From: an uncultured Lachnospiraceae bacterium
GTDB lineage: Bacteria > Bacillota > Clostridia > Lachnospirales > Lachnospiraceae
DNA: 56,263 nt
Direction of reading: 5' to 3'
Assembly (NCBI GenBank): GCA_946491665.1
Contig: CAMLYL010000011.1
Location: 1-56,263, forward strand
Under the pieces are notes generated by a model. That model had not been told where the DNA came from. It saw only the letters and a list, made by a program, of their open reading frames with translations, and searched no databases. Below are positions 12,947-26,106 of this stretch, in pieces; positions within the stretch are counted from its first letter, which is position 1, and the number at the start of each line of letters is the position of its first letter. The position numbers and the translations under genes are program-made.

Positions 12947-14170
12947 TTATTTGTTCTGGTTCTTCATTTCAGCCAGTTTCATGGCGCGAACCTTCAGAGG
13001 AAGTCCGAAGAGTGTGATAAAGCCGTCCGCATCATGATGATCGTAAAGATCACCGGTAGTGAAGCTTGCCAGGGACTCACTGTATAAGGAGTAGGGGGAA
13101 GTGGTTCCTGCCTTGATGATATTGCCTTTGTAGAGGCGGAATTTTACTTCGCCGGTTACATATTTCTGAGTGGATTCTACGAAAGCCTGAATTGCCTCCC
13201 GGAGAGGTGTAAACCATTTGCCCTCGTAAACAACCTGAGCCAGCTTATTTCCCATATCCTTTTTGGTTTCCATGGTAGCCCGGTCAAGGACAAGCTCCTC
13301 CAGCTGCTTGTGGGCCTCCATCAGGATGGTTCCGCCGGGAGTCTCGTATACGCCGCGGGATTTCATGCCTACGACACGGTTCTCCACAATATCGATGATG
13401 CCGATGCCGTGCTTGCCGCCCAGTCTGTTCAGCTCGCGAATAATATCGGATACTTTCATTTCTTTGCCGTTGATGGATTTGGGTACTCCGGCCTCGAAAG
13501 TCATGGTTACATATTCGCTCTCGTCAGGAGCTTTTTCAGGAGTTACACTTAACATGAGCATATGGTCGTAGTTGGGCTCCAGGGAAGGATCCTCCAGCTC
13601 CAGTCCCTCGTGGCTGATGTGCCACAGATTGCGGTCGCGGCTGTAGCTCTGATCATTGGAAAAAGGAAGATCTATGCCGTGGGCTCTGCAGTATTCGATC
13701 TCTGATTCGCGGGAGTCCAGTTTCCATTTGCTGTCACGCCAGGGAGCAATGATCCTGATGTCCGGAGCAAGAGCCTTAATGGAGAGCTCAAAACGGATCT
13801 GATCGTTTCCTTTTCCGGTGGCGCCGTGACAGATGGCAACAGCGCCTTCTTTTCTGGCGATCTCAACCAGTTTTTTCGCGATGCCCGGACGCGCCATAGA
13901 TGTACCCAGAAGATATTTGTTCTCGTATACAGCGCCGGCCTGTACACAGGGGATAATGTAATCATCGCAGAACTCATCGGTAATATCCTCGATATAAAGC
14001 TTGGCTGCTCCGGAAAGCTTCGCGCGCTCCTCCAGGCCGTCCAGCTCGTTGCCCTGGCCGCAGTCAACACAGCAGCAGACAACATCGTAGTCATAATTCT
14101 CCTTTAACCAGGGGATAATGGCGGTGGTGTCCAGTCCGCCGGAATAGGCTAAAACGACTTTTTCTCTCAT
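12947..14170 (-). CDS. argG: argininosuccinate synthase
   Basis: Cytoplasmic enzyme joining citrulline and aspartate with ATP to give argininosuccinate, the penultimate step of arginine synthesis. The 407-aa length is typical. The N-terminal ATP pyrophosphatase loop is AYSGGLDTT (residues 8-16). Further family segments include GATGKGNDQIRFE, IAPWRD, and the DRNLWHISHEGLELEDP substrate region. The start is the ATG at 14168-14170, preceded on the minus strand by AGAAAGGATG; a longer reading would add 64 hydrophobic, non-family residues. It diverges from the GNAT-argJ-argB-argD operon, and argH is not within the window. Confidence 0.97.
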   Translation of the reverse strand: MREKVVLAYSGGLDTTAIIPWLKENYDYDVVCCCVDCGQGNELDGLEERAKLSGAAKLYIEDITDEFCDDYIIPCVQAGAVYENKYLLGTSMARPGIAKKLVEIARKEGAVAICHGATGKGNDQIRFELSIKALAPDIRIIAPWRDSKWKLDSRESEIEYCRAHGIDLPFSNDQSYSRDRNLWHISHEGLELEDPSLEPNYDHMLMLSVTPEKAPDESEYVTMTFEAGVPKSINGKEMKVSDIIRELNRLGGKHGIGIIDIVENRVVGMKSRGVYETPGGTILMEAHKQLEELVLDRATMETKKDMGNKLAQVVYEGKWFTPLREAIQAFVESTQKYVTGEVKFRLYKGNIIKAGTTSPYSLYSESLASFTTGDLYDHHDADGFITLFGLPLKVRAMKLAEMKNQNK

Positions 14171-14200
14171 AATAAAAATACATCCTTTCTGTATATTAAT

Positions 14201-14225
14201 ATTCTTCTGAAACAGAAAGAAGAAT
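14201..14225 (-). other. inverted repeat in the argG leader
   Basis: ATTCTTCT (14201-14208) and AGAAGAAT (14218-14225) form an AT-rich 8-9 bp stem with a 9-base loop. It lies between the argG promoter and the argG start, so it would form in the mRNA leader. Confidence 0.5.
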
Positions 14226-14249
14226 ACATCCTCTCTCTTAACCTGTTCG

Positions 14250-14278
14250 ATTATACTACAGAACCTCTTATTAAGCAA
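14250..14278 (-). promoter_or_regulatory. sigma-A promoter for argG
   Basis: On the minus strand: TTGCTT (14273-14278), 17-base spacer, TATAAT (14250-14255). The -10 is perfect. It sits about 80 bases upstream of the argG ATG. Confidence 0.8.
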
Positions 14279-14361
14279 GTGAAAAAATATACATAAAATA
14301 CTTATAAAAATACAATCAAACGGAAATTGTGCATGAAAAGGATAAATTGAATAAAAAGCCA

Positions 14362-14389
14362 TTGATTATTTAAAAAGTTGTGATATGAT
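14362..14389 (+). promoter_or_regulatory. sigma-A promoter for GNAT-argJ-argB-argD
   Basis: TTGATT (14362-14367), 16-base spacer, TATGAT (14384-14389). It is divergent from the argG promoter and about 170 bases before the GNAT start, leaving a long leader. Confidence 0.65.
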
Positions 14390-14422
14390 AGAAAAAGAAC
14401 TTTGTGAATGGAAAATGTATAT

Positions 14423-14438
14423 ATGAATAAATATGCAT
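14423..14438 (+). promoter_or_regulatory. ARG-box-like operator (ArgR/AhrC)
   Basis: ATGAATAAATATGCAT is an imperfect palindrome (ATG-x-ATA..TAT-x-CAT). It closely fits the ARG box pattern TGAATWWWWATTCA known for ArgR/AhrC. It lies about 33 bases downstream of the arg operon -10, in the intergenic region shared with argG. Binding is inferred. Confidence 0.55.
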
Positions 14439-14478
14439 TTTTGCCAAAAAAGGCTTTACGAATGAGGGAAGAAGTATT

Positions 14479-14541
14479 ATGATGGAACGGTGCGCCCGGA
14501 GATGTACTCCGGGAAGAGAAAAGATTTGGACAGACGGATAA
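14479..14541 (+). CDS. putative 20-aa arginine-rich leader peptide of the arg operon
   Basis: A short ORF starting with two ATG codons encodes 20 residues, of which four are Arg (residues 4, 7, 8 and 13). Two adjacent Arg codons (CGG AGA, 14497-14502) lie in the 5' arm of a perfect hairpin at 14495-14513. A GAGGGAAG ribosome site precedes it by about 7 bases, and its TAA overlaps the AAGGAG site of the GNAT gene. This is the geometry of a translational or transcriptional attenuation leader. The arginine count could still be chance, since random ORFs of this size hold about one. Confidence 0.35.
   Translation: MMERCARRCTPGREKIWTDG
14495..14513 (+). other. hairpin within the putative arg leader ORF
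   Basis: CCCGGAG (14495-14501), loop ATGTA, CTCCGGG (14507-14513): a perfect 7-bp GC-rich stem with no T-run after it. It covers the tandem Arg codons of the short leader ORF. Confidence 0.7.
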
Positions 14542-14556
14542 GGAGAACATACGGAT

Positions 14557-15009
14557 ATGGAAGTTCAGATTCGTACGATGACAACAGAAGATTATGACAG
14601 TGTATACGCGCTCTGGAAAACGATCCGGGGCTTCGGGATCCGAAGTATCGATGATTCGCGCCAGGGAACGGAGCGCTTCCTGCGAAGAAATCCTGCCACC
14701 AGCGTTGTGGCGGAGCTGGATGGGAAGATTGTGGGATCGATTCTCTGCGGGCACGATGGAAGAACCGGATACTTTTACCATGTCTGTGTGGATGAGCGGT
14801 ACCGTAATCACGGTATTGGCAGAAAGATGGCCACAGCGGCCATGCGGGCGCTGCAGAAGGAGCAGATTAATAAGGTCAGTCTGATTGCTTTTAAGGACAA
14901 CGAGATAGGAAATCATTTCTGGCACAGATTCGGATGGAATGAGCGTACAGACATGAATTATTATGAGTTTGTTCTGAATGACGAAAACATTACGAAATTT
15001 AATGCGTAG
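14557..15009 (+). CDS. GNAT N-acetyltransferase, YpeA-like, first gene of the arg operon
   Basis: A 150-aa Gcn5-related acetyltransferase. The acetyl-CoA binding motif A is visible as VCVDERYRNHGIGRKM (about 88-103), and the C-terminal half has the GNAT pattern of FKDNEIGNHFWHRFGW. Overall it resembles E. coli YpeA-type acetyltransferases (IRxxxxEDYxxVxxLW start, VVAELDGKIVGSILCGHDGRTGYFYHV). It stands 16 bases before argJ under the arginine promoter. A role in making N-acetylglutamate, or in acetylating another arginine-pathway metabolite, is possible but unproved; the natural substrate is unknown. Confidence 0.85.
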   Translation: MEVQIRTMTTEDYDSVYALWKTIRGFGIRSIDDSRQGTERFLRRNPATSVVAELDGKIVGSILCGHDGRTGYFYHVCVDERYRNHGIGRKMATAAMRALQKEQINKVSLIAFKDNEIGNHFWHRFGWNERTDMNYYEFVLNDENITKFNA

Positions 15010-15025
15010 AGAAAAGAGGGAAATT

Positions 15026-16249
15026 ATGAAACAGATTACAGGCGGCGCGACAGCTGCGCAGGGATTTCTGGCGGCAGATACGGCGGCGGGAATTAAATAT
15101 AAAGACCGGACAGATATGGCGATGCTTTTCAGTGAGAAGCCCTGCCGGGCGGCAGGAACATTTACCTCCAATGTGGTAAAAGCCGCTCCGGTTTTGTGGG
15201 ACAGGAAAATTGTGCAGGAGAGTGAGGCGGTTCAGGCAGTTGTGATTAATGCCGGAATTGCCAATGCCTGTACCGGAAAGGAAGGTCTGGGCTATTGTCA
15301 TGAGACAGCAAAAGCAGCCGGAGAAGCTCTGGGGATTCCGGAGGAGGCTGTTCTGGTGGCTTCCACAGGCGTGATCGGCATGCAGCTTCCGATTGACCGG
15401 ATTCAGGCAGGTGTCAGGGCGATGGCTCCCGGACTTTCCGGAAGCATGGAAGCCGGCAGCAGGGCCGCGAAGGCAATTATGACCACGGATACTCATGAAA
15501 AGGAAGCTGCCGTGCAGTTTGAAGTAGATGGGAAGACTGTTACAGTGGGAGGCATGTGCAAGGGATCGGGAATGATTCATCCAAATATGTGCACCATGCT
15601 TGCTTTTGTCACCACGGATCTGGCGATCTCAAAGGAACTGCTGCAGGAGGCGCTGAGCGCGGACGTGCAGGATACGTTCAATATGATTTCCGTAGATGGG
15701 GACACTTCTACCAATGATACCCTGCTGCTTCTGGCAAATGGAATGGCGGGAAATGCGGAGATCACAGAAAAAAATGAAGATTATGAGAAGTTCTGCAGGG
15801 CGCTGAATTTTGTTAATACGGAACTGGCGAAGATGATGGCCGGAGACGGGGAGGGCGCCACGGCCCTGTTTGAGGTGAAGGTGATTCATGCAGCCACAAA
15901 GGAGCAGGCAAAGCTTTTAAGCAAATCTGTGGTCTGCTCCAGTCTGACCAAAGCCGCTGTTTTCGGTCATGACGCCAATTGGGGACGGATACTCTGCGCC
16001 ATGGGGTATTCCGGCGCGCAGTTTGATCCGGAGAAAGTTGATCTGTATTTTGAGAGCGAGGCGGGAAGGATTCAGCTCATTGAGGATGGCGTTGCGCTTC
16101 CCTACAGCGAGGAAGAGGCGACCAGGATTCTGTCGGAGTCTGCGGTGACAGCTGTTGCGGACATTAAGATGGGAGAAGCTTCCGCCACAGCCTGGGGATG
16201 CGACCTGAGTTATGATTATGTAAAAATTAATGCGGATTACAGATCGTAG
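15026..16249 (+). CDS. argJ: bifunctional glutamate N-acetyltransferase / ornithine acetyltransferase
   Basis: Ntn-type self-cleaving enzyme that recycles the acetyl group from N-acetylornithine to glutamate in arginine synthesis. The 407-aa precursor should cleave before the nucleophile Thr190 in the motif KGSGMIHPNMCTMLAF. Here Cys189 replaces the more usual Ala before the Thr. Other family landmarks are TSNVVKAAPV, NAGIANACTG, ASTGVIG and the C-terminal DLSYDYVKINADYRS. ATG 15026 follows AAGAGGG. Because argJ is bifunctional it could start the pathway by itself if it accepts acetyl-CoA, otherwise a separate synthase is needed. Confidence 0.97.
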   Translation: MKQITGGATAAQGFLAADTAAGIKYKDRTDMAMLFSEKPCRAAGTFTSNVVKAAPVLWDRKIVQESEAVQAVVINAGIANACTGKEGLGYCHETAKAAGEALGIPEEAVLVASTGVIGMQLPIDRIQAGVRAMAPGLSGSMEAGSRAAKAIMTTDTHEKEAAVQFEVDGKTVTVGGMCKGSGMIHPNMCTMLAFVTTDLAISKELLQEALSADVQDTFNMISVDGDTSTNDTLLLLANGMAGNAEITEKNEDYEKFCRALNFVNTELAKMMAGDGEGATALFEVKVIHAATKEQAKLLSKSVVCSSLTKAAVFGHDANWGRILCAMGYSGAQFDPEKVDLYFESEAGRIQLIEDGVALPYSEEEATRILSESAVTAVADIKMGEASATAWGCDLSYDYVKINADYRS

Positions 16250-16306
16250 GGATCAGAAAATACAGTAATCTGCGTGCTATTTTATGAAAGAAAAGAGGTT
16301 AAAGGA

Positions 16307-17203
16307 ATGCCTGACAGGATTGAAGAATTAAAAGCAAAGGCGGAAGTGCTGATCGAGGCGCTTCCCTATATTCAGCGTTTTAACCGCAGAATCATTGTTG
16401 TAAAATACGGCGGCAGCGCCATGCTGGATGAAGAATTGAAAAAGAGCGTTATTCAGGATGTAACCCTGCTGAAGCTGGTTGGCTTCAAGCCGATTATTGT
16501 TCACGGCGGCGGCAAGGAGATCAATAAATGGGTGGAGAAATCGGGAATAGATCCCGTATTTGTCAACGGTCTGCGAAAGACTGATGCGGAGACAATGGAA
16601 ATTGCCGAAATGGTACTTGGAAAGGTTGGAAAGTCTCTGGTTTCCATGGTGGAAGCGTTGGGAGTCCGGGCCGTCAGTATCAGCGGAAAGGACGGCGGGC
16701 TTTTAAAGGTAGATAAAAAATATTCTGACGGACAGGATATCGGTTTTGTGGGAGATATTAAAGCTGTGGATCCGAAGATTTTATTTGATCTTCTGGAAAA
16801 AGATTTTCTTCCGATTATCTGCCCGATTGGTCTGGATGATGAGTATCAGACTTATAATATTAATGCGGATGATGCCGCATGCGCTATTGCTACGGCTGTG
16901 AATGCGGAGAAGCTGGCGTTTCTGACAGATATTGAGGGCGTGCGCCGGGATCCGGAGGATCCCTCCACACTGATTTCCGAGCTGACACTGAGTGAAGCAC
17001 GGGAATTACTGGACAGCGGATATGTGGTGGGAGGAATGCTCCCGAAATTGAATAATTGTATCCATGCCATAGAAAACGGCGTGTCCAGGGTACATATTCT
17101 GGACGGACGGCTGGCTCACTGCCTGCTTTTGGAAATCTTTACCAATAAGGGAATCGGCACGGCAATTCTCAGCGACAGAGAGGAGAAATATTTTCATGAA
17201 TAA
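16307..17203 (+). CDS. argB: acetylglutamate kinase
   Basis: Phosphorylates N-acetylglutamate, the second step of the acetylated arginine pathway. The product is 298 aa. KYGGSAM (about 28-34) and [10 protein letters not shown] are the nucleotide and substrate loops, with GFVGDI and NINADDAA further on. The N-terminal extra helix ([15 protein letters not shown]) is characteristic of arginine-feedback-inhibited hexameric kinases, so end-product inhibition is expected. ATG 16307 is preferred to GTG 16274, since an AGAGG site lies at 16294-16298. Its end overlaps argD by 8 bases. Confidence 0.96.
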
Positions 17204-18392
17204 ACAGGATTATATCAACGGCGCGGAGACAGCGCTGCTCCATACATACAACCGTTTTCCGCTGGTGCTGGAAAAAGGCGAGGGAGTTTACCTTTATGAT
17301 ACGGACGGGAAAAAATATCTGGATTTTGCAGCGGGAATTGCGGTCTGTGCATTCGGATATGGGAAAAAAGAATATAATGAGGCTTTGAAGGCACAGATTG
17401 ATCAGATCATTCATACGTCCAATCTCTACTATAATGTGCCGACCATGGAGGCCGCGAAAAAGGCGCTTGCAGCTTCCGGCATGGACCGTATCTTTTTTAC
17501 GAACAGCGGAACAGAAGCTGTCGAGGGCGCTCTGAAGGCTGCGAAAAAGTATGCTTACACCAGGGACGGCCATGCGGGTCACGAAGTGATCGCCATGAAG
17601 AATTCTTTCCACGGCAGAAGTCTGGGAGCGCTGTCAGTGACCGGAACAAAGCATTATCAGGAGCCCTTTGAGCCGCTGATCCCGGGAATCCGGTTCGCAG
17701 ATTACAATAATCTGGAGAGTGTAAAAGCTCTGATTACAGATAAGACCTGCGCTGTAATCATGGAAACGGTCCAGGGAGAGGGCGGGGTTTATCCCGCGGA
17801 TCCCGGGTTTCTGCAGGGCGTACGGGAATTGTGCGATGAGAAGGACATCCTTCTGATTCTGGATGAGATTCAGTGCGGTATGGGACGTACAGGAGCGATG
17901 TTTGCCTGGCAGAAATACGGTGTGAAACCGGATATTATGACAGTTGCAAAAGCTCTGGGAGCCGGAGTGCCGGTGGGAGCTTTTCTGATGACACAGCGGG
18001 TGGCTGACAGCTCTCTTGTTCCGGGAGATCATGGAACGACATATGGCGGCAATCCCTTTGTGGGAGCGGCGGTCAGCACAGTATTTGATCTCTTTGAGAA
18101 AGAAAAAATTGTGGATCATGTGAATGAGATTGCTCCTTACATGGAGGAAAAGCTGGATGGACTGAAAGAGAAATATTCTTTTATTACTGATCGGCGGGGT
18201 ATGGGTCTGATGCAGGGCCTGGAGATGGAAATTCCCGTGGGCCAGGTGGCATCGAAAGCTCTGGAGCAGGGGCTGATGGTAATTACTGCCGGTTCCAATG
18301 TGGTGCGTCTGGTGCCGCCCCTTGTGATTGAGAAGCAGCATGTGGATGAGATGGCGGAAAAACTGGATGCCGTTCTTCAGACATGGAACTGA
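17196..18392 (+). CDS. argD: acetylornithine aminotransferase
   Basis: PLP enzyme converting N-acetylglutamate semialdehyde to N-acetylornithine with glutamate as amino donor. The 398-aa product has the class III aminotransferase pattern: [46 protein letters not shown], and the PLP lysine Lys252 in [20 protein letters not shown] follows. The ATG lies inside the end of argB (8-base overlap), indicating coupled translation. argC and argF, needed to complete the pathway, are not in this window. Confidence 0.96.
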
Positions 18393-19304: not shown

Positions 19305-21344
19305 TTGAAAAGAATGAAAATCGCAAAAAGAGTCCTCTGGATTTTCCCGGCGGCAGCGCTGTTTGCATTGCAGGGAGCGGGTACGGTCTTTGCCGCGGCG
19401 GATACAGTGCGGCAAAATGACAAAGAGGACGCGGATATTGTGGATTCCTCGGAAACGGGGTCAATAACGATTTATAAGTACGATATGACTGCTGCCGGGG
19501 AGAATGGCCTGGATCTGTCTTCGCTGAAGGAACCTTCAGGGGAGGCAGATAAAGATGCGGAGACACTGTTGACGGACTATGCTGTAGAGGGTGTGGAATT
19601 TTCTTATCTTTATTGCGGAAAGGCTGAGACGTACAGCAGCAGTGAGACACAGAAGAACCGGATTGAGCTGGTGTATGAGGTGCCCCGGGATCTGGCGGAA
19701 CTTCTCGGAATGGATCCGGAGGATGCCTTTGATATGAGTGAAAGTGTACCGGAACCCTGCAGTGACCAGGGGGTATACCATTATTCTTCTGCTCAGATCA
19801 ATGATGCGCTGAAGAATTTTCTGGAGAACGGAGAATCCGGACAGGAGGACGGAAATAAGCTGGCCAGGGATGCGCTGGAAGAATATATGAAGAACAGCAA
19901 CGGCCGGACGGCCATGCCGCTGACTGATGAAAATGGAAAGACGGAGGCGGAAGGGCTTTCGCTGGGACTGTATCTTCTGGTGGAGACAAAGGTTCCCGAA
20001 AATGTGACGGAGACGGCGGATCCCTGGTTCGCGGCTCTTCCGTTTACAGATGAGGAAGGGGAGCAGTGGCTGTATGACATCACCTGTTATCCGAAGAACC
20101 AGACCGGAAATCCGACTTTGGAAAAGCTGGTGCAGAATGCCACTGAAAATGTGGACGGCACAGACAAAAATACGAAAGATTACGCGGAAACCGCAACCGT
20201 TTCCGAGGGAGATGTACTCAATTACCTGCTGGTTTCGAAAATGCCCCATATTCACAGCCGGGCTACATATCTGACTCAGTACAGTTTTCGGGATGTTCTC
20301 AGCGAGGGACTGGAATATAACCAGGATGTAAAGATCGCTTTTTATACATCAGAGGAGGCGGCCGGAAGCAATGATCTGAATCAGGCAGCGGAAATCTGGG
20401 GAGAAGACCGGGATACGGCAGGGCTGTATCGTCAGACCTGTAAAAGTTTAAAGACAGAGGACGGATCAGAAAGCGGTCTGACTCAGCTGGATGTGGTGAT
20501 TACGGATGAGGGCCTGGAAAAAATAAACCGGGACAGAAGCGATTACTGGATTGTGGTTTTCTACACAGTCACTGTCAATGCAGATGCATCGGCTGTTCTT
20601 GGAGATGAAGGAAATCCCAATGATGCGGAACTGACCTGGCGCAGAACCAGTGATTCCTATTATGATACCCTGGAGGATTCCTGCACAGTATATACTTATG
20701 GTCTTCAGCTGGAAAAGCAGTTTTCTGATGGGGGCGGAGATCCCCGGAAGGCGGAATTTATATTATATAATTCCACGGACGGCTGCTACCTGCTCTCGGA
20801 ACACACAGGTACCATTGATGACCGGAAGGTATACTATATAACCGGAAAAACTTCCGAAAAGGAAGCTGCCACACGCTTTTCGCCGGCCGGAGACGGAGCT
20901 TTCTGTATTTATGGCATGGAAGCGGATGACTATGTTCTGACAGAAACTGATACAGATGCAGGATATCAGATTTTAAAGGATCCCATAGAGATTTCGATTC
21001 ACAGTACAGAGGGGATGGGAGAGGTCCGCATTCCGGCGTCAGCTTCAGTCGACGGTCAGGAAGCGGAACTTTGTGAATTTGTCCTGACGGACGAGACTTA
21101 TATTGTTAATGATACAGATTTTGCTTCCGGGATTGTGAACACAGTACAGCAGGAAGGGGAAATCCGGTCCGGCAGCAGCCAGGTTGTACTGGAGGTTACC
21201 AATCACAGAAAATTTCTGCTTCCTCAGACTGGAGGTACGGGAAGCTATCTGCTGACGATTGCGGGACTCGCGGCAGCGGCGGCAGGGATTTTTGTGGGCG
21301 AGAGGAGTTCCGTAAAGCGGAAAAACCGCGGGCCGGAATTATAG
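19305..21344 (+). CDS. sortase-assembled backbone pilin (LPQTG)
   Basis: A 679-aa secreted protein, likely the major pilus subunit. It has a signal peptide (about 1-31, ending VFAAA), an N-terminal pilin domain, and the pilin lysine motif CYPKN with Lys264 (YPK at 262-264), the nucleophile in class C sortase polymerisation. Further on come a SpaA/CnaB-type isopeptide domain with an E-box (YVLTETDTDAGY, Glu547), the sorting signal LPQTG at 639-643, a hydrophobic helix and a basic tail. Start is TTG 19305, 8 bases after GGAGA; the next in-frame ATG (19314) is too far from the ribosome site. The sortase gene begins 3 bases after its stop. Confidence 0.93.
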   Translation: MKRMKIAKRVLWIFPAAALFALQGAGTVFAAADTVRQNDKEDADIVDSSETGSITIYKYDMTAAGENGLDLSSLKEPSGEADKDAETLLTDYAVEGVEFSYLYCGKAETYSSSETQKNRIELVYEVPRDLAELLGMDPEDAFDMSESVPEPCSDQGVYHYSSAQINDALKNFLENGESGQEDGNKLARDALEEYMKNSNGRTAMPLTDENGKTEAEGLSLGLYLLVETKVPENVTETADPWFAALPFTDEEGEQWLYDITCYPKNQTGNPTLEKLVQNATENVDGTDKNTKDYAETATVSEGDVLNYLLVSKMPHIHSRATYLTQYSFRDVLSEGLEYNQDVKIAFYTSEEAAGSNDLNQAAEIWGEDRDTAGLYRQTCKSLKTEDGSESGLTQLDVVITDEGLEKINRDRSDYWIVVFYTVTVNADASAVLGDEGNPNDAELTWRRTSDSYYDTLEDSCTVYTYGLQLEKQFSDGGGDPRKAEFILYNSTDGCYLLSEHTGTIDDRKVYYITGKTSEKEAATRFSPAGDGAFCIYGMEADDYVLTETDTDAGYQILKDPIEISIHSTEGMGEVRIPASASVDGQEAELCEFVLTDETYIVNDTDFASGIVNTVQQEGEIRSGSSQVVLEVTNHRKFLLPQTGGTGSYLLTIAGLAAAAAGIFVGERSSVKRKNRGPEL

Positions 21345-21347
21345 GAA

Positions 21348-23009
21348 ATGCCAAACAGAAAGTTACGGGGAAGGAGGATTCTTTCTCTGGGCTGTATCGC
21401 TGCGGGGCTTTTGCTGCTTTTTTATCCCTTCATCCGGGAATGTTTGAATAAATATGAAACCGATTCAAAGGCGGAAGCTTACCGGAATCTGGTAACGGAT
21501 GCCGGTGAGGCTGATGTCAGAGAACTGTGGGACGCGGCTGTCCGATACAATCAGGATCTGGCTGAAGGCGCCGCAGTGCTGACCGATCCGTTTCTTTCCG
21601 GAAAGGATGAGGCGGAAGCAGACGTTTATGAATCTGTTCTTGCGGTGAGCGATGAAGGATTGATGGGATTTGTGGAAATTCCGGCGATTGATGTCCGGCT
21701 GCCGGTCTATCACGGAACCGACGCGCAGACTATGGAAAAGGGAATCGGCCATCTGGAAGGCTCCTCTCTGCCGACAGGCGGGAAGGGAACCCATGCTGTG
21801 CTTGCGGGGCATACGGGACTTCGCGGAGCGAAGCTGTTTACAGATCTGGATGAACTGGAAAAAGGGGATGTTTTTTATCTGCACATTCTGGATCAGATAC
21901 TCACTTATCAGATTCGGGAAACGGCGGTGGTGATTCCTTCTGACGTCAGCAGACTGATGATACAGCCGGGAAAGGATCTGTGTACTCTGGTTACCTGTAC
22001 CCCTTACGGAATAAACTCTCACAGACTTCTGGTGACAGGAGAGCGGACAGAAGCAACGGCGGAAGATATGGCAGAGGAGAAAACATACAGTGATATGACA
22101 GGAGGGGGCAGATTCAAAAGAGGACTGATATGGAGCATCGGCCTGGTTCTGGGACTGATGCTGATTCTGTATCCGGTATTTTCTGACCTGCGGTTCAGGC
22201 AGCAGAGCCGGCGGTATATTTCTGCGCAGAAGCTGCAGTTCGGAGAAACGGGCGGGAATATCGAGGGGGAGACAGAAGAACAGAATGTCAAAGCGGCAGA
22301 GCTCTATGAGGAAGCGAAAGTGTATAATGCTTCGCTGGTTTCCGGAAAGCGGGCGGGGAACGGTAATCTGCAGGAAAACTGCAGACTTCCTCTTTTCGCA
22401 GAGGCGGCGGAGGATAATGGTTTCGGCTATATAGAAGTTCCGGCTATGGATATCCGGCTGCCGCTGTTTTTCGGAGCTTCCGACGTACATTTGTCCAGAG
22501 GGGCGGCTGTGCTGGAAGGTTCCTCTCTTCCCCTGGGAGAGCCGTCTTCCAATACGGTAATTGCGGGGCACAGGGGATACCGGGGAATTCCGTTTTTCCG
22601 TGAAATCGAGCGTCTGAAGACGGGGAATGAGGTATATGTGACTACGCCCTGGAATTCTTTTTTATATCGGGTGGAAGAAATACAGATTATCGAACCTTCC
22701 GATACCAGAGCGCTGGAAATCCGGCCGGAAAAGGATATGGTAACACTGATGACCTGTCACCCGTATCTGTCGGGAGGAAAGTACCGTTATGTGGTTTATT
22801 GTATCAGGGATACTGATTTCACAGGTGCGGAATATGAGGAAGAGGAAACAGAATATCCGGAGAATATACTGCTGGAATGGACGGAATGCTCGGACTCCCG
22901 AAAGCTGATTTTCGGAGAAAAAGTCTGCCGTGTTCTGGGAGTGTGCGGTATTGGAATTCTGTTTGTTGTTAAGATCAGGAGGGAAAGGAGAAGGGTGCGT
23001 GAAACGTAA
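21348..23009 (+). CDS. tandem double-domain (two-headed) class C-type sortase
   Basis: A 553-aa protein with two full sortase domains in one reading frame. Domain 1 (about 95-232) has His155 (VLAGHTG), Cys217 (TLVTCTPYG) and Arg226 (NSHRLLV), and before it a class C lid motif Asp80-Pro-Phe. Domain 2 (about 345-490) has His408 (VIAGHRG), Cys470 (TLMTCHPY) and Arg480 (KYRYVVY), with no lid motif visible. His-to-Cys spacing is 62 in both. Hydrophobic helices are at about 11-29, 259-278 and 525-542, and the C-terminal tail is very basic. Typical class C sortases are about 250-320 aa with one domain. The protein should polymerise the pilin through Lys264 and attach the large adhesin or anchor the fibre. 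No frameshift or clear internal start separates the halves. Confidence 0.93.
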   Translation: MPNRKLRGRRILSLGCIAAGLLLLFYPFIRECLNKYETDSKAEAYRNLVTDAGEADVRELWDAAVRYNQDLAEGAAVLTDPFLSGKDEAEADVYESVLAVSDEGLMGFVEIPAIDVRLPVYHGTDAQTMEKGIGHLEGSSLPTGGKGTHAVLAGHTGLRGAKLFTDLDELEKGDVFYLHILDQILTYQIRETAVVIPSDVSRLMIQPGKDLCTLVTCTPYGINSHRLLVTGERTEATAEDMAEEKTYSDMTGGGRFKRGLIWSIGLVLGLMLILYPVFSDLRFRQQSRRYISAQKLQFGETGGNIEGETEEQNVKAAELYEEAKVYNASLVSGKRAGNGNLQENCRLPLFAEAAEDNGFGYIEVPAMDIRLPLFFGASDVHLSRGAAVLEGSSLPLGEPSSNTVIAGHRGYRGIPFFREIERLKTGNEVYVTTPWNSFLYRVEEIQIIEPSDTRALEIRPEKDMVTLMTCHPYLSGGKYRYVVYCIRDTDFTGAEYEEEETEYPENILLEWTECSDSRKLIFGEKVCRVLGVCGIGILFVVKIRRERRRVRET

Positions 23010-26000
23010 AATTGTAAAGGGAGTGCTCTGTGTTCTGCTGGCCTGCGGAATAATTTCCGGATCAGGGCAGATACAGGCGGCTGTTAATGAAAGAGATTCC
23101 GGGACATATGAAATTGATACAGAGATCAGTTCTGCAGAGCAGGAAGCTGCGGTAACAGATGCGGTATACGAAAATTATATCAGAGACCACGCAGACCCCC
23201 GCTATACAGAAACGGAAAGTCTGAAGCTGGTCAACGCTGTTCTGGTCAAACAGTCCCTGTTTGATAAAAGCCGGACGGAGGCGGGGGATACGATCGGGAG
23301 CATCATGTCAGGAATCGAGTCAGGGGACGGGGATGAGGCAGAAAAATTCCTCGCTCAGATATCGAATGTGGTTGCATTATATGAGCTGAGTGAGGAAAGT
23401 GATTATTATGCGGCCTGGGTCAATACCATGGAGCAGGATACCGATGCGGAGGTATCTGACTGGATCTTTGCCCTGAATGATAATGAAGGAAATGTTCTTT
23501 CTGATTGTATCTATGATAAAAGTACGGGAATGGCATATATACCGAAGGCAGACTGTCTGAATGAACAGGGAGAACAGATTCTGCTGAATGTTCAGGTACA
23601 GCTCATGCAGCAGATTTCCTATGAAGATCCGGAATCGGATGTTATCACGTCTGTGTCGGATGACGAGGAACTGGTCAGCATTTCTACAACAACATCTTCT
23701 GTGTTTGATGTGGAAACTGTAGTGCAGGCGGAACCGGGACTGGAGGAAGAAAATATGGAAGTAGCGGTGAACGGGGTTCCCATACAGGAGGAATATTATG
23801 CCTATGACAGTGAGAGCGGGGCATTATCTCTGAATCAGTCTCCGGCTATGATTCAGTCGGTTTCAGTTATGACAGAACCGGAACATCTGGCGGAAAAGGC
23901 CGCGGATTTTCTTTTTCCGGCCAGTGAGGTGTACGCCCTGTCGGCAGAACAGATGACGTCAGTGGCTGCAAATATTGAACTGCCGGACTGGGTGGAAACG
24001 GGGACGTTTCTGACCGGATCGGCGAACTATTCCTACAATGGACAGAGTTCCTGGACCTACAGCTACGGATTTGGAAGCAACAGTGAGACTCTGCTGGCTC
24101 AGATGGTCAGCCTGATTGAGAATGGAGGAGAACTGGATATGAGCAGGGTGCAGACGCAGCAGGATTCCAGATATATTACCACATTTGTGGATCTGGCTGT
24201 AAACACACTTCAGAACGCCGGACGCTCTATAGAGGCGCTGAAAAATATACCTGTGCTTCATATGGAATGCTGCCATGTGGATACTGTGCTGGGCTCAGTT
24301 TCAGGCTCTGCGGTGGTGGGAGGAAAATGGTCTCTCCAGCCCGTTCGTATGAGATTTCTGAAAGTGGACAGGACAAACAATTATGCAATTATCGGAATTT
24401 ATACGATAGAAACTCATACGCAGACAGGCTGTGCCTTTTTCAAAATCGGAATTAAACCATTCAGCGGATATGGGAACATCGGCAAAAAAGACGGACAGAC
24501 AGATGAGGTGGTTGAGGGAGCTGTTTATGGAATATATACAGATGCGGCGTGCACGGCTCCCGCAAAAGATATAAACGGGAATACGGTATCCTTTACTACT
24601 GTAAAGGAATTTCCCTATTCAAATACTGTAACAATGCGTCCGGGAAGATACTATGTAAAAGAGACAGCGTCACCGGAAGGCTATTCCATGGATCCGACTG
24701 TAAAAATTTTGAATATCAGGGCAGGACAGAGAACCTGGGCCAATAACGCGGGAACAGATACCGGATGGAATTATGACAACCGGAAAGTCACGCTTTCTCT
24801 GCGTAAAGTATCTGCGGATCCGGAATTAACAGAGAGCAATCCCTGTTACAGCCTGAAGGGAGCTGTTTACGGAGTCTATACCTCCAGAGAAAATGCCATG
24901 AAAGATCAAAACAGGCTGGCTGCGCTTCAGACAGACGGGAGCGGAACTTCGGGAAAGATATCTCTGGACGCGGGAACCTATTATGTCAGAGAAATTACGG
25001 CATCACCGGGCTACGAGAAGTGCAGCGGAGGCTGTGACAGCGCGGATGAGAATGGAATTCATGTGGTTCAGGCAGAGGAATATGGGAAGGACTATGAGTT
25101 TACCTGTGCGGAACAGCCGGTTTTTCATTCATTTGCGCTTACTGTTCAGAAAAGAGAGCTGGATTATGCAGGAGATACTCCGACCGGAACCGCAGACTGG
25201 TCGGGAGCGGTTTTTCAGGTAGAGTACTTTGAAAATGATGCGGGGAACACCGAAGGTCAGCCCGGGAGGAGCTGGTATTTCCGGACGGATCATACCGGCG
25301 AGGCAGTTTTGAACCGGCAGGAGGATCTGGTGAAAGACATGACGCTGGCTGATGGAACTTCTGTCACTTCGGATGAGTTGTTTTATGACGCGGAAGGTCA
25401 GGCTGTTCTTTATCCTGCAGGTACTTACAGGATCACAGAGGTACAGGCCTCGCGTTATTATCAGCTGGACGGAAAGATTATATTCGGAGATGCTTCTTCA
25501 GAACAGACGGATTTATCACAGGGAGTTACTGTTGTAATCCGGGAGGAAAATGACAGGGCTGTTCTGTATTATAATGAAAACAGAATCGACGATTCAGATC
25601 CGGAGGCAATGACAGTGCGTTTCCTGGATCGGCTTTGCCGGGGAAGCATAAAACTGGTGAAATATGAGGCGGGCAGGGAGACGCCGCTTCAGGGAGTTTC
25701 CTATCGGCTGGAGGGCGTAGAGACAGGAGAGAGCTATACGGCGTATACAGATGAGAATGGGATAATTCTCTGGGAAAATCTGGTTCCTCAGCATTATGTG
25801 ATAACAGAAATTTCCACAGCGGAGGGATTGTCTCTTCTGAAGGATCCGATAGAAGTGACTCTGCCGCTGAATGTTTCCGCGGAGGAAGCTTCCGGAGAAA
25901 ATATAGATCTGGATCAGGCGGTGTGGGATGCTTCAGCCAATGCATGGTGTTTTTATAATCTGACTTATGAGATCAGAGATGACGCTGCGCTGAAAATGCC

Positions 26001-26106
26001 TGAGGCGGGGGCGGTGTCAGGAGACAGACAGACAAAAGCTGCCGCAGCTGCCGTGCTTGGCGCAGGGCTGATATTGCTGATCAGAAGAAAGCATGAAAAA
26101 CTTTAA
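22999..26106 (+). CDS. large SpaA/CnaB-repeat pilus adhesin with MPEAG sorting signal
   Basis: A 1035-aa secreted, cell-wall-anchored protein, probably the pilus tip or ancillary subunit. It has a signal peptide (1 to about 28), then roughly 460 residues of unique N-terminal sequence that I cannot assign. Four SpaA/CnaB-like isopeptide domains follow, each with an E-box: Glu555 (YVKETASPEGY), Glu665 (YVREITASPGY), Glu814 (YRITEVQAS) and Glu937 (YVITEISTAEG). The C-terminus is MPEAG (1000-1004), a hydrophobic helix and RRKHEKL, so the sorting motif departs from LPXTG. GTG 22999, after AAAGGAG, overlaps the sortase stop by 11 bases, giving coupled translation. No vWA adhesive domain with MIDAS was seen. 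Confidence 0.88.
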   Translation: MKRKIVKGVLCVLLACGIISGSGQIQAAVNERDSGTYEIDTEISSAEQEAAVTDAVYENYIRDHADPRYTETESLKLVNAVLVKQSLFDKSRTEAGDTIGSIMSGIESGDGDEAEKFLAQISNVVALYELSEESDYYAAWVNTMEQDTDAEVSDWIFALNDNEGNVLSDCIYDKSTGMAYIPKADCLNEQGEQILLNVQVQLMQQISYEDPESDVITSVSDDEELVSISTTTSSVFDVETVVQAEPGLEEENMEVAVNGVPIQEEYYAYDSESGALSLNQSPAMIQSVSVMTEPEHLAEKAADFLFPASEVYALSAEQMTSVAANIELPDWVETGTFLTGSANYSYNGQSSWTYSYGFGSNSETLLAQMVSLIENGGELDMSRVQTQQDSRYITTFVDLAVNTLQNAGRSIEALKNIPVLHMECCHVDTVLGSVSGSAVVGGKWSLQPVRMRFLKVDRTNNYAIIGIYTIETHTQTGCAFFKIGIKPFSGYGNIGKKDGQTDEVVEGAVYGIYTDAACTAPAKDINGNTVSFTTVKEFPYSNTVTMRPGRYYVKETASPEGYSMDPTVKILNIRAGQRTWANNAGTDTGWNYDNRKVTLSLRKVSADPELTESNPCYSLKGAVYGVYTSRENAMKDQNRLAALQTDGSGTSGKISLDAGTYYVREITASPGYEKCSGGCDSADENGIHVVQAEEYGKDYEFTCAEQPVFHSFALTVQKRELDYAGDTPTGTADWSGAVFQVEYFENDAGNTEGQPGRSWYFRTDHTGEAVLNRQEDLVKDMTLADGTSVTSDELFYDAEGQAVLYPAGTYRITEVQASRYYQLDGKIIFGDASSEQTDLSQGVTVVIREENDRAVLYYNENRIDDSDPEAMTVRFLDRLCRGSIKLVKYEAGRETPLQGVSYRLEGVETGESYTAYTDENGIILWENLVPQHYVITEISTAEGLSLLKDPIEVTLPLNVSAEEASGENIDLDQAVWDASANAWCFYNLTYEIRDDAALKMPEAGAVSGDRQTKAAAAAVLGAGLILLIRRKHEKL

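Follow-up and report, generated by a model that had tools for sequence, protein, structure and literature searches.

The window analysed here, a stretch of 56,263 nucleotides from an uncultured, gut-type Lachnospiraceae bacterium, carries a pilus locus in which a single gene for a fused double class C sortase (553 aa; 21348..23009, assigned by translation, Pfam and NCBIfam; this and all features below are on the forward strand) lies between two signal-bearing pilin genes. From family searches and the sequence itself, the upstream gene (19305..21344) encodes a backbone pilin that matches the SpaH/EbpB major-pilin model and has the sorting signal LPQTGG, and the downstream gene (22999..26106) encodes a large, probable tip pilin with SpaA domains and the sorting signal MPEAG. 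The mechanical open reading frame of the latter (1,058 codons) begins at 22930, and we place the start at a GTG at 22999 that has a good ribosome-binding site. The pilus locus that the initial annotation had described is thereby confirmed. It adjoins a run of genes (12947-18392) whose sequence features suggest arginine biosynthesis. The source genome is a draft (171 contigs, 83.94% complete) with three further sortase matches besides the fused gene; two pass the class B model, and the third, truncated where its contig ends, reaches 146.6, below the cut-off of 153.75. No class A sortase was seen among the PF04203 matches listed in this incomplete draft.

The fused gene reads as one frame, with no internal stop over its 553 residues. 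In accord with the paired domains expected by the initial annotation, PF04203 matches two stretches of the one protein (179.3 bits in total, cut-off 26.6; Pfam). The protein was split at residue 249/250 and each half scored on the NCBIfam class C sortase model NF033745 (cut-off 160), with residues 1-249 giving 268.7 bits and residues 250-553 giving 161.2 bits, a narrow margin of 1.2 bits; NF033745 models one domain of 220 positions, whereas the fused protein matches it twice, with both halves above the cut-off. Core 1 (residues 109-233, 21672..22046; Pfam and sequence) contains His155 (21810-21812), Cys217 (21996-21998), and Arg226 (22023-22025), and core 2 (residues 362-485, 22431..22802; sequence) contains His408 (22569-22571), Cys470 (22755-22757), and Arg480 (22785-22787). 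These are the two catalytic sets read earlier from the DNA, with the same His-to-Cys spacing of 62 in each, and all six residues are kept. Among aligned sortase domains, the triad is present in all 20 first-half rows and in 19 of the 20 second-half rows, including both halves of all four fusions (the window, L026, L064, and L089). The observation that a single frame encodes a pair of class C sortase domains is therefore correct.

Because the source is a draft, we considered whether two genes had been joined by an assembly artefact, and a missed stop or frameshift at 22090-22130 had been a particular concern of the initial annotation. A search of 20 genomes of the genus showed fused forms in two of them, the window's own genome and G018. 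The G018 locus (L026; on public contig CALWGM010000114.1 of an uncultured Lachnospiraceae bacterium, L041) has a 615-codon frame with the same gene order, is 57% identical over the fusion, and keeps the frame across the junction in what is a second, independent metagenome assembly. Since this syntenic relative has the same fusion, and since further fusions exist in two other genera, we regard an artefact as highly improbable. We note that an argD-like gene also lies beside the L026 locus.

Elsewhere in the genus, the two sortase types are encoded by separate neighbouring genes, in 11 loci of nine genomes (L027-L036 and L112; frames read), which, when mechanical starts are used, overlap by as much as 115 bases or lie up to 94 bases apart. 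These separate pairs resemble the fused gene in their sortase types, their order, and their neighbouring pilins, but differ from it in being two genes rather than one. Two more fusions are present in other genera of the family, L064 in a second genus and L089 in a third. In a tree of 40 domain rows, the 20 first domains form one clade and the 20 second domains another, with support of 100/100 for each, and the two halves of the fusions have separate ancestors. In each clade the window has L026 as its sister (100/97 and 100/99), L064 groups with L101, a separate pair encoded in the L064 genome (domain 1, 100/100; domain 2, 94/83), and L089 joins neither of these groups, although its exact place is not settled. 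Fusion has thus occurred repeatedly, and because the window/L026 pair, L064, and L089 fall in distinct lineages, the tree supports three independent fusions of one old sortase pair.

The preferred reading, which we hold with a probability of roughly 0.6, is that the gene arose by fusion of neighbouring class C sortase genes that had long formed a pair, with domain 1 serving the backbone pilin and domain 2 the large pilin, both at equal dose. Domain 1, of the LPQTG type and with a class C lid, would most likely polymerise the backbone pilin encoded just upstream, and domain 2, of a Cys-His-Pro-Tyr type and without the DP-aromatic lid motif, would most likely load the downstream large pilin and join it to the shaft; the fusion would hold the two enzymes at equal dose and at one membrane site. 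We infer this substrate assignment, together with enzymatic activity and an outward position of both domains of one chain. The assignment draws on gene order, on the partial division of labour published for paired sortases (PMC3493515), and on a correlation with sorting signals. The backbone signal is LPQTG in all 13 pair loci of the genus, and the large-pilin signal is not LPxTG in 12 of the 13. The correlation is imperfect, which counts against the division: one pair locus has LPTTG in its large pilin, and where a locus has two first-type sortases (four cases), LPxTG signals are the only ones in two cases and are accompanied by others in the remaining two. We note that the MPEAG signal of the large pilin (22999-26106) is unusual; the genus pair loci have MPAAG, MPFTG, MPMTG, MPVTG, VPKAG, VPQAG, LPKAG, and WPIAG. 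The proposal in the initial annotation that one enzyme couples polymerisation with tip addition agrees with the order of the genes and with both types of signal, though this agreement is correlative. The annotation did not anticipate the separate neighbouring genes of relatives, the loss of the first enzyme's C-terminal membrane helix, or the conflict between a single inter-domain helix and an outside position of both domains.

Hydrophobic segments were identified by Kyte-Doolittle analysis with a threshold of 1.6. The first (residues 11-29, 21378..21434; value 2.29) is the N-terminal membrane helix of domain 1, and is followed by the class C lid motif of that domain, TDPF (residues 79-82, 21582..21593), which has the DP plus aromatic form (DPF at 80-82) as defined in PMC3493515. 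After core 1 comes a little-conserved linker (residues 234-258, 22047..22121) and then a lone inter-domain segment (residues 260-278, 22125..22181), which in alignment corresponds to the helix at the N-terminus of second sortases encoded by genes of their own. A third segment (residues 525-543; value 1.92) provides a C-terminal helix for domain 2 and, with its basic tail (residues 544-553, charge +4), spans 22920..23006; the corresponding segment of L026 stays below the threshold. All 20 proteins of ten separate pairs (L027-L036) have a hydrophobic segment near each end, whereas the window and L026 fusions are without the C-terminal segment of the first enzyme, leaving one segment between the domains, and that segment is of the second-sortase N-terminal type. 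The L064 fusion likewise has one segment between its domains, and L089 has two, separated by a short turn that has no ATG, with TTG and GTG codons in or near it. According to PMC3493515, class C sortases have a C-terminal membrane helix as a hallmark, and those without one are unable to polymerise pili in cells; the inter-domain helix (helix 2) may therefore replace the lost C-terminal anchor of domain 1.

The helix count is the strongest difficulty for one chain displaying two enzymes, because with a single inter-domain helix, as in three of the four fusions (the window, L026, and L064), domain 2 should end up inside the cell. In L089, two inter-domain helices, an even number, allow both domains to be displayed, and there is no topology conflict. 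The basic tail and conserved active site of domain 2 suggest an outside location, in opposition to the helix count. Topology is the main difficulty, and both activities may, but need not, reside on one polypeptide in this organism.

A near-neutral accident, in which domain 1 works while domain 2, trapped in the cytoplasm, decays, would agree with this helix count, as well as with three other observations. Domain 2 has no DP-aromatic lid motif in either the window or L026; it diverges somewhat faster in this fusion, with a log-identity ratio of 1.35 compared with 0.68 to 1.31 in 45 separate pairs; and a separate second-type sortase of the genus (L032:3128-4204) has its catalytic Cys replaced by Tyr, showing that the activity can be dispensable. 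The missing lid and the faster divergence, like the 1.2-bit class C margin of domain 2, also weigh against the preferred reading. Domain 2 keeps the motif as DPF in L064 and DPW in L089, so fusion as such does not entail its loss; five of ten separate second sortases have DAW. Against the accident, between the window and L026 the dN/dS of core 2 is 0.136, although this value is rough because a dS of 1.80 is near saturation, and is as low as that of core 1 (0.151, dS 1.07). Both cores are thus under purifying selection as judged from these comparisons, the triads are intact in both species, and the basic C-terminal tail is kept. Judged by catalytic residues and selection, neither domain is degenerate, a prospect that the initial annotation had raised; independent decay of domain 2 is rejected on dN/dS, and we consider the accident improbable.

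A different resolution of the helix conflict is that the gene contains two overlapping translation units, with the full-length chain anchoring domain 1 by helices 1 and 2, and domain 2 also being made from an internal start and anchored at its N-terminus by helix 2, such that the working enzymes stay separate. Of the 77 internal ATGs of L064, the one at codon 251 matches a ribosome-binding site best (score 10 of 13), and Met241 and Met250 of the window are both conserved in L026, in a linker that is only 28% identical. However, with a shorter anti-SD sequence even the L064 codon is ordinary (16 of 77), and the window Met codons are not above background, since 123 (Met241) and 283 (Met250) of 393 internal ATGs are as good or better (105 and 30 of 393 with the short anti-SD). 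The two linker Met codons of L026 are similarly at background (58 of 82 each; 42 and 32 of 82 with the short anti-SD). A weak ribosome-binding site does not exclude use, because even the start codon at the head of the fusion is at background (283 of 393), and conservation of the two linker Mets proves little, because two of seven other non-initiator Mets are also conserved between the window and L026. L089 needs no internal start at all. Internal initiation was accordingly rejected as the main account of the window gene, where the ribosome-binding tests gave it no support, and we view two translation units as possible but unlikely. Slightly less likely again is the specific arrangement in which one helix would serve two enzymes in opposite orientations, as the C-terminal anchor of sortase 1 in the full chain and the N-terminal anchor of sortase 2 in the internally begun product; if true, a single gene would yield two linked pilus enzymes because the helix they share adopts a dual topology.

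The frequency of such fusions was addressed with a two-domain profile search of 392 genomes of the order, 391 of the class, 387 of the family, and 388 of the phylum (overlapping sets, all including the window's genome), with thresholds of 1e-60 for class and family and 1e-75 for phylum. With these thresholds and at most three candidates scored per genome, all counts are lower bounds: at least two fusions in the order (G000, the window's genome, and G096), at least three in the family (G000, G096, and G044), and only G000 in the class and phylum sets. Long open-frame values were poor guides to fusion candidates, with one of 16 regions being real (L064) and then one of 13 (L089); aside from these two and the comparison pair L101, the other long-frame regions are single sortases or two genes with an intervening stop. 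A scan of public genome contigs with the fused alignment returned only L041, but its two patterns both derive from domain 1 and say little about distant fusions. A viral-contig scan found no relative. There was no fusion among the 15 plasmid matches listed of 631 matching records; the two longest (H5 and H6, 1,247 bases) have equal length and record features, with H5 consisting of two separate frames, and H1 is annotated as one lone sortase of class C. Among the ten phage matches listed of 22 matching records there was likewise no fusion, and none is longer than 744 bases.

Several class C sortases with other extensions were seen in these regions. One of 872 aa (L091:3760-6378) has a very long charged C-terminal extension, with Pfam naming the sortase domain only, and C-terminal extensions are also present in L059, L060, and L061 (443-444 aa) and in L062 and L065 (444 aa); a Pfam scan of L060 and L062 shows only the sortase domain. 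L099:2719-4056 and L100:2868-4283 have long N-terminal extensions ahead of the first membrane helix.

The closest known parallels are paired class C pilus sortases encoded by adjacent genes, such as SrtC1 and SrtC2 of Group B Streptococcus pilus island 1, which have partly different pilin preferences (PMC3493515). The window locus is similar in having two class C sortases per pilus locus with the same catalytic triad, and a DP-aromatic lid in domain 1. Unlike SrtC1 and SrtC2, which are separate proteins, each with a C-terminal membrane helix as a class feature, the two domains here share one frame, and domain 1 has lost the C-terminal helix of its own. Searches of open-licence papers brought up no account of sortases fused in this way; related terms in PMC5148588 and PMC5478893 refer to a double mutant, a reagent, and the tandem action of enzymes. 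The enzymes themselves are ordinary class C sortases, and what is unusual is their fusion and the helix conflict that accompanies it.

A two-domain enzyme of this kind could serve in two-step protein ligation. The odd helix count makes the protein a clean case of membrane topology, in which the membrane is not spanned by a segment that is strongly hydrophobic, or else one gene gives two products that use the helix both ways. Pilus assembly is usually pictured with separate sortases that have to meet one another as well as the appropriate pilins, and a natural fused pair that has arisen more than once would offer a direct test of spatial coupling between backbone polymerisation and the handling of a second pilin.
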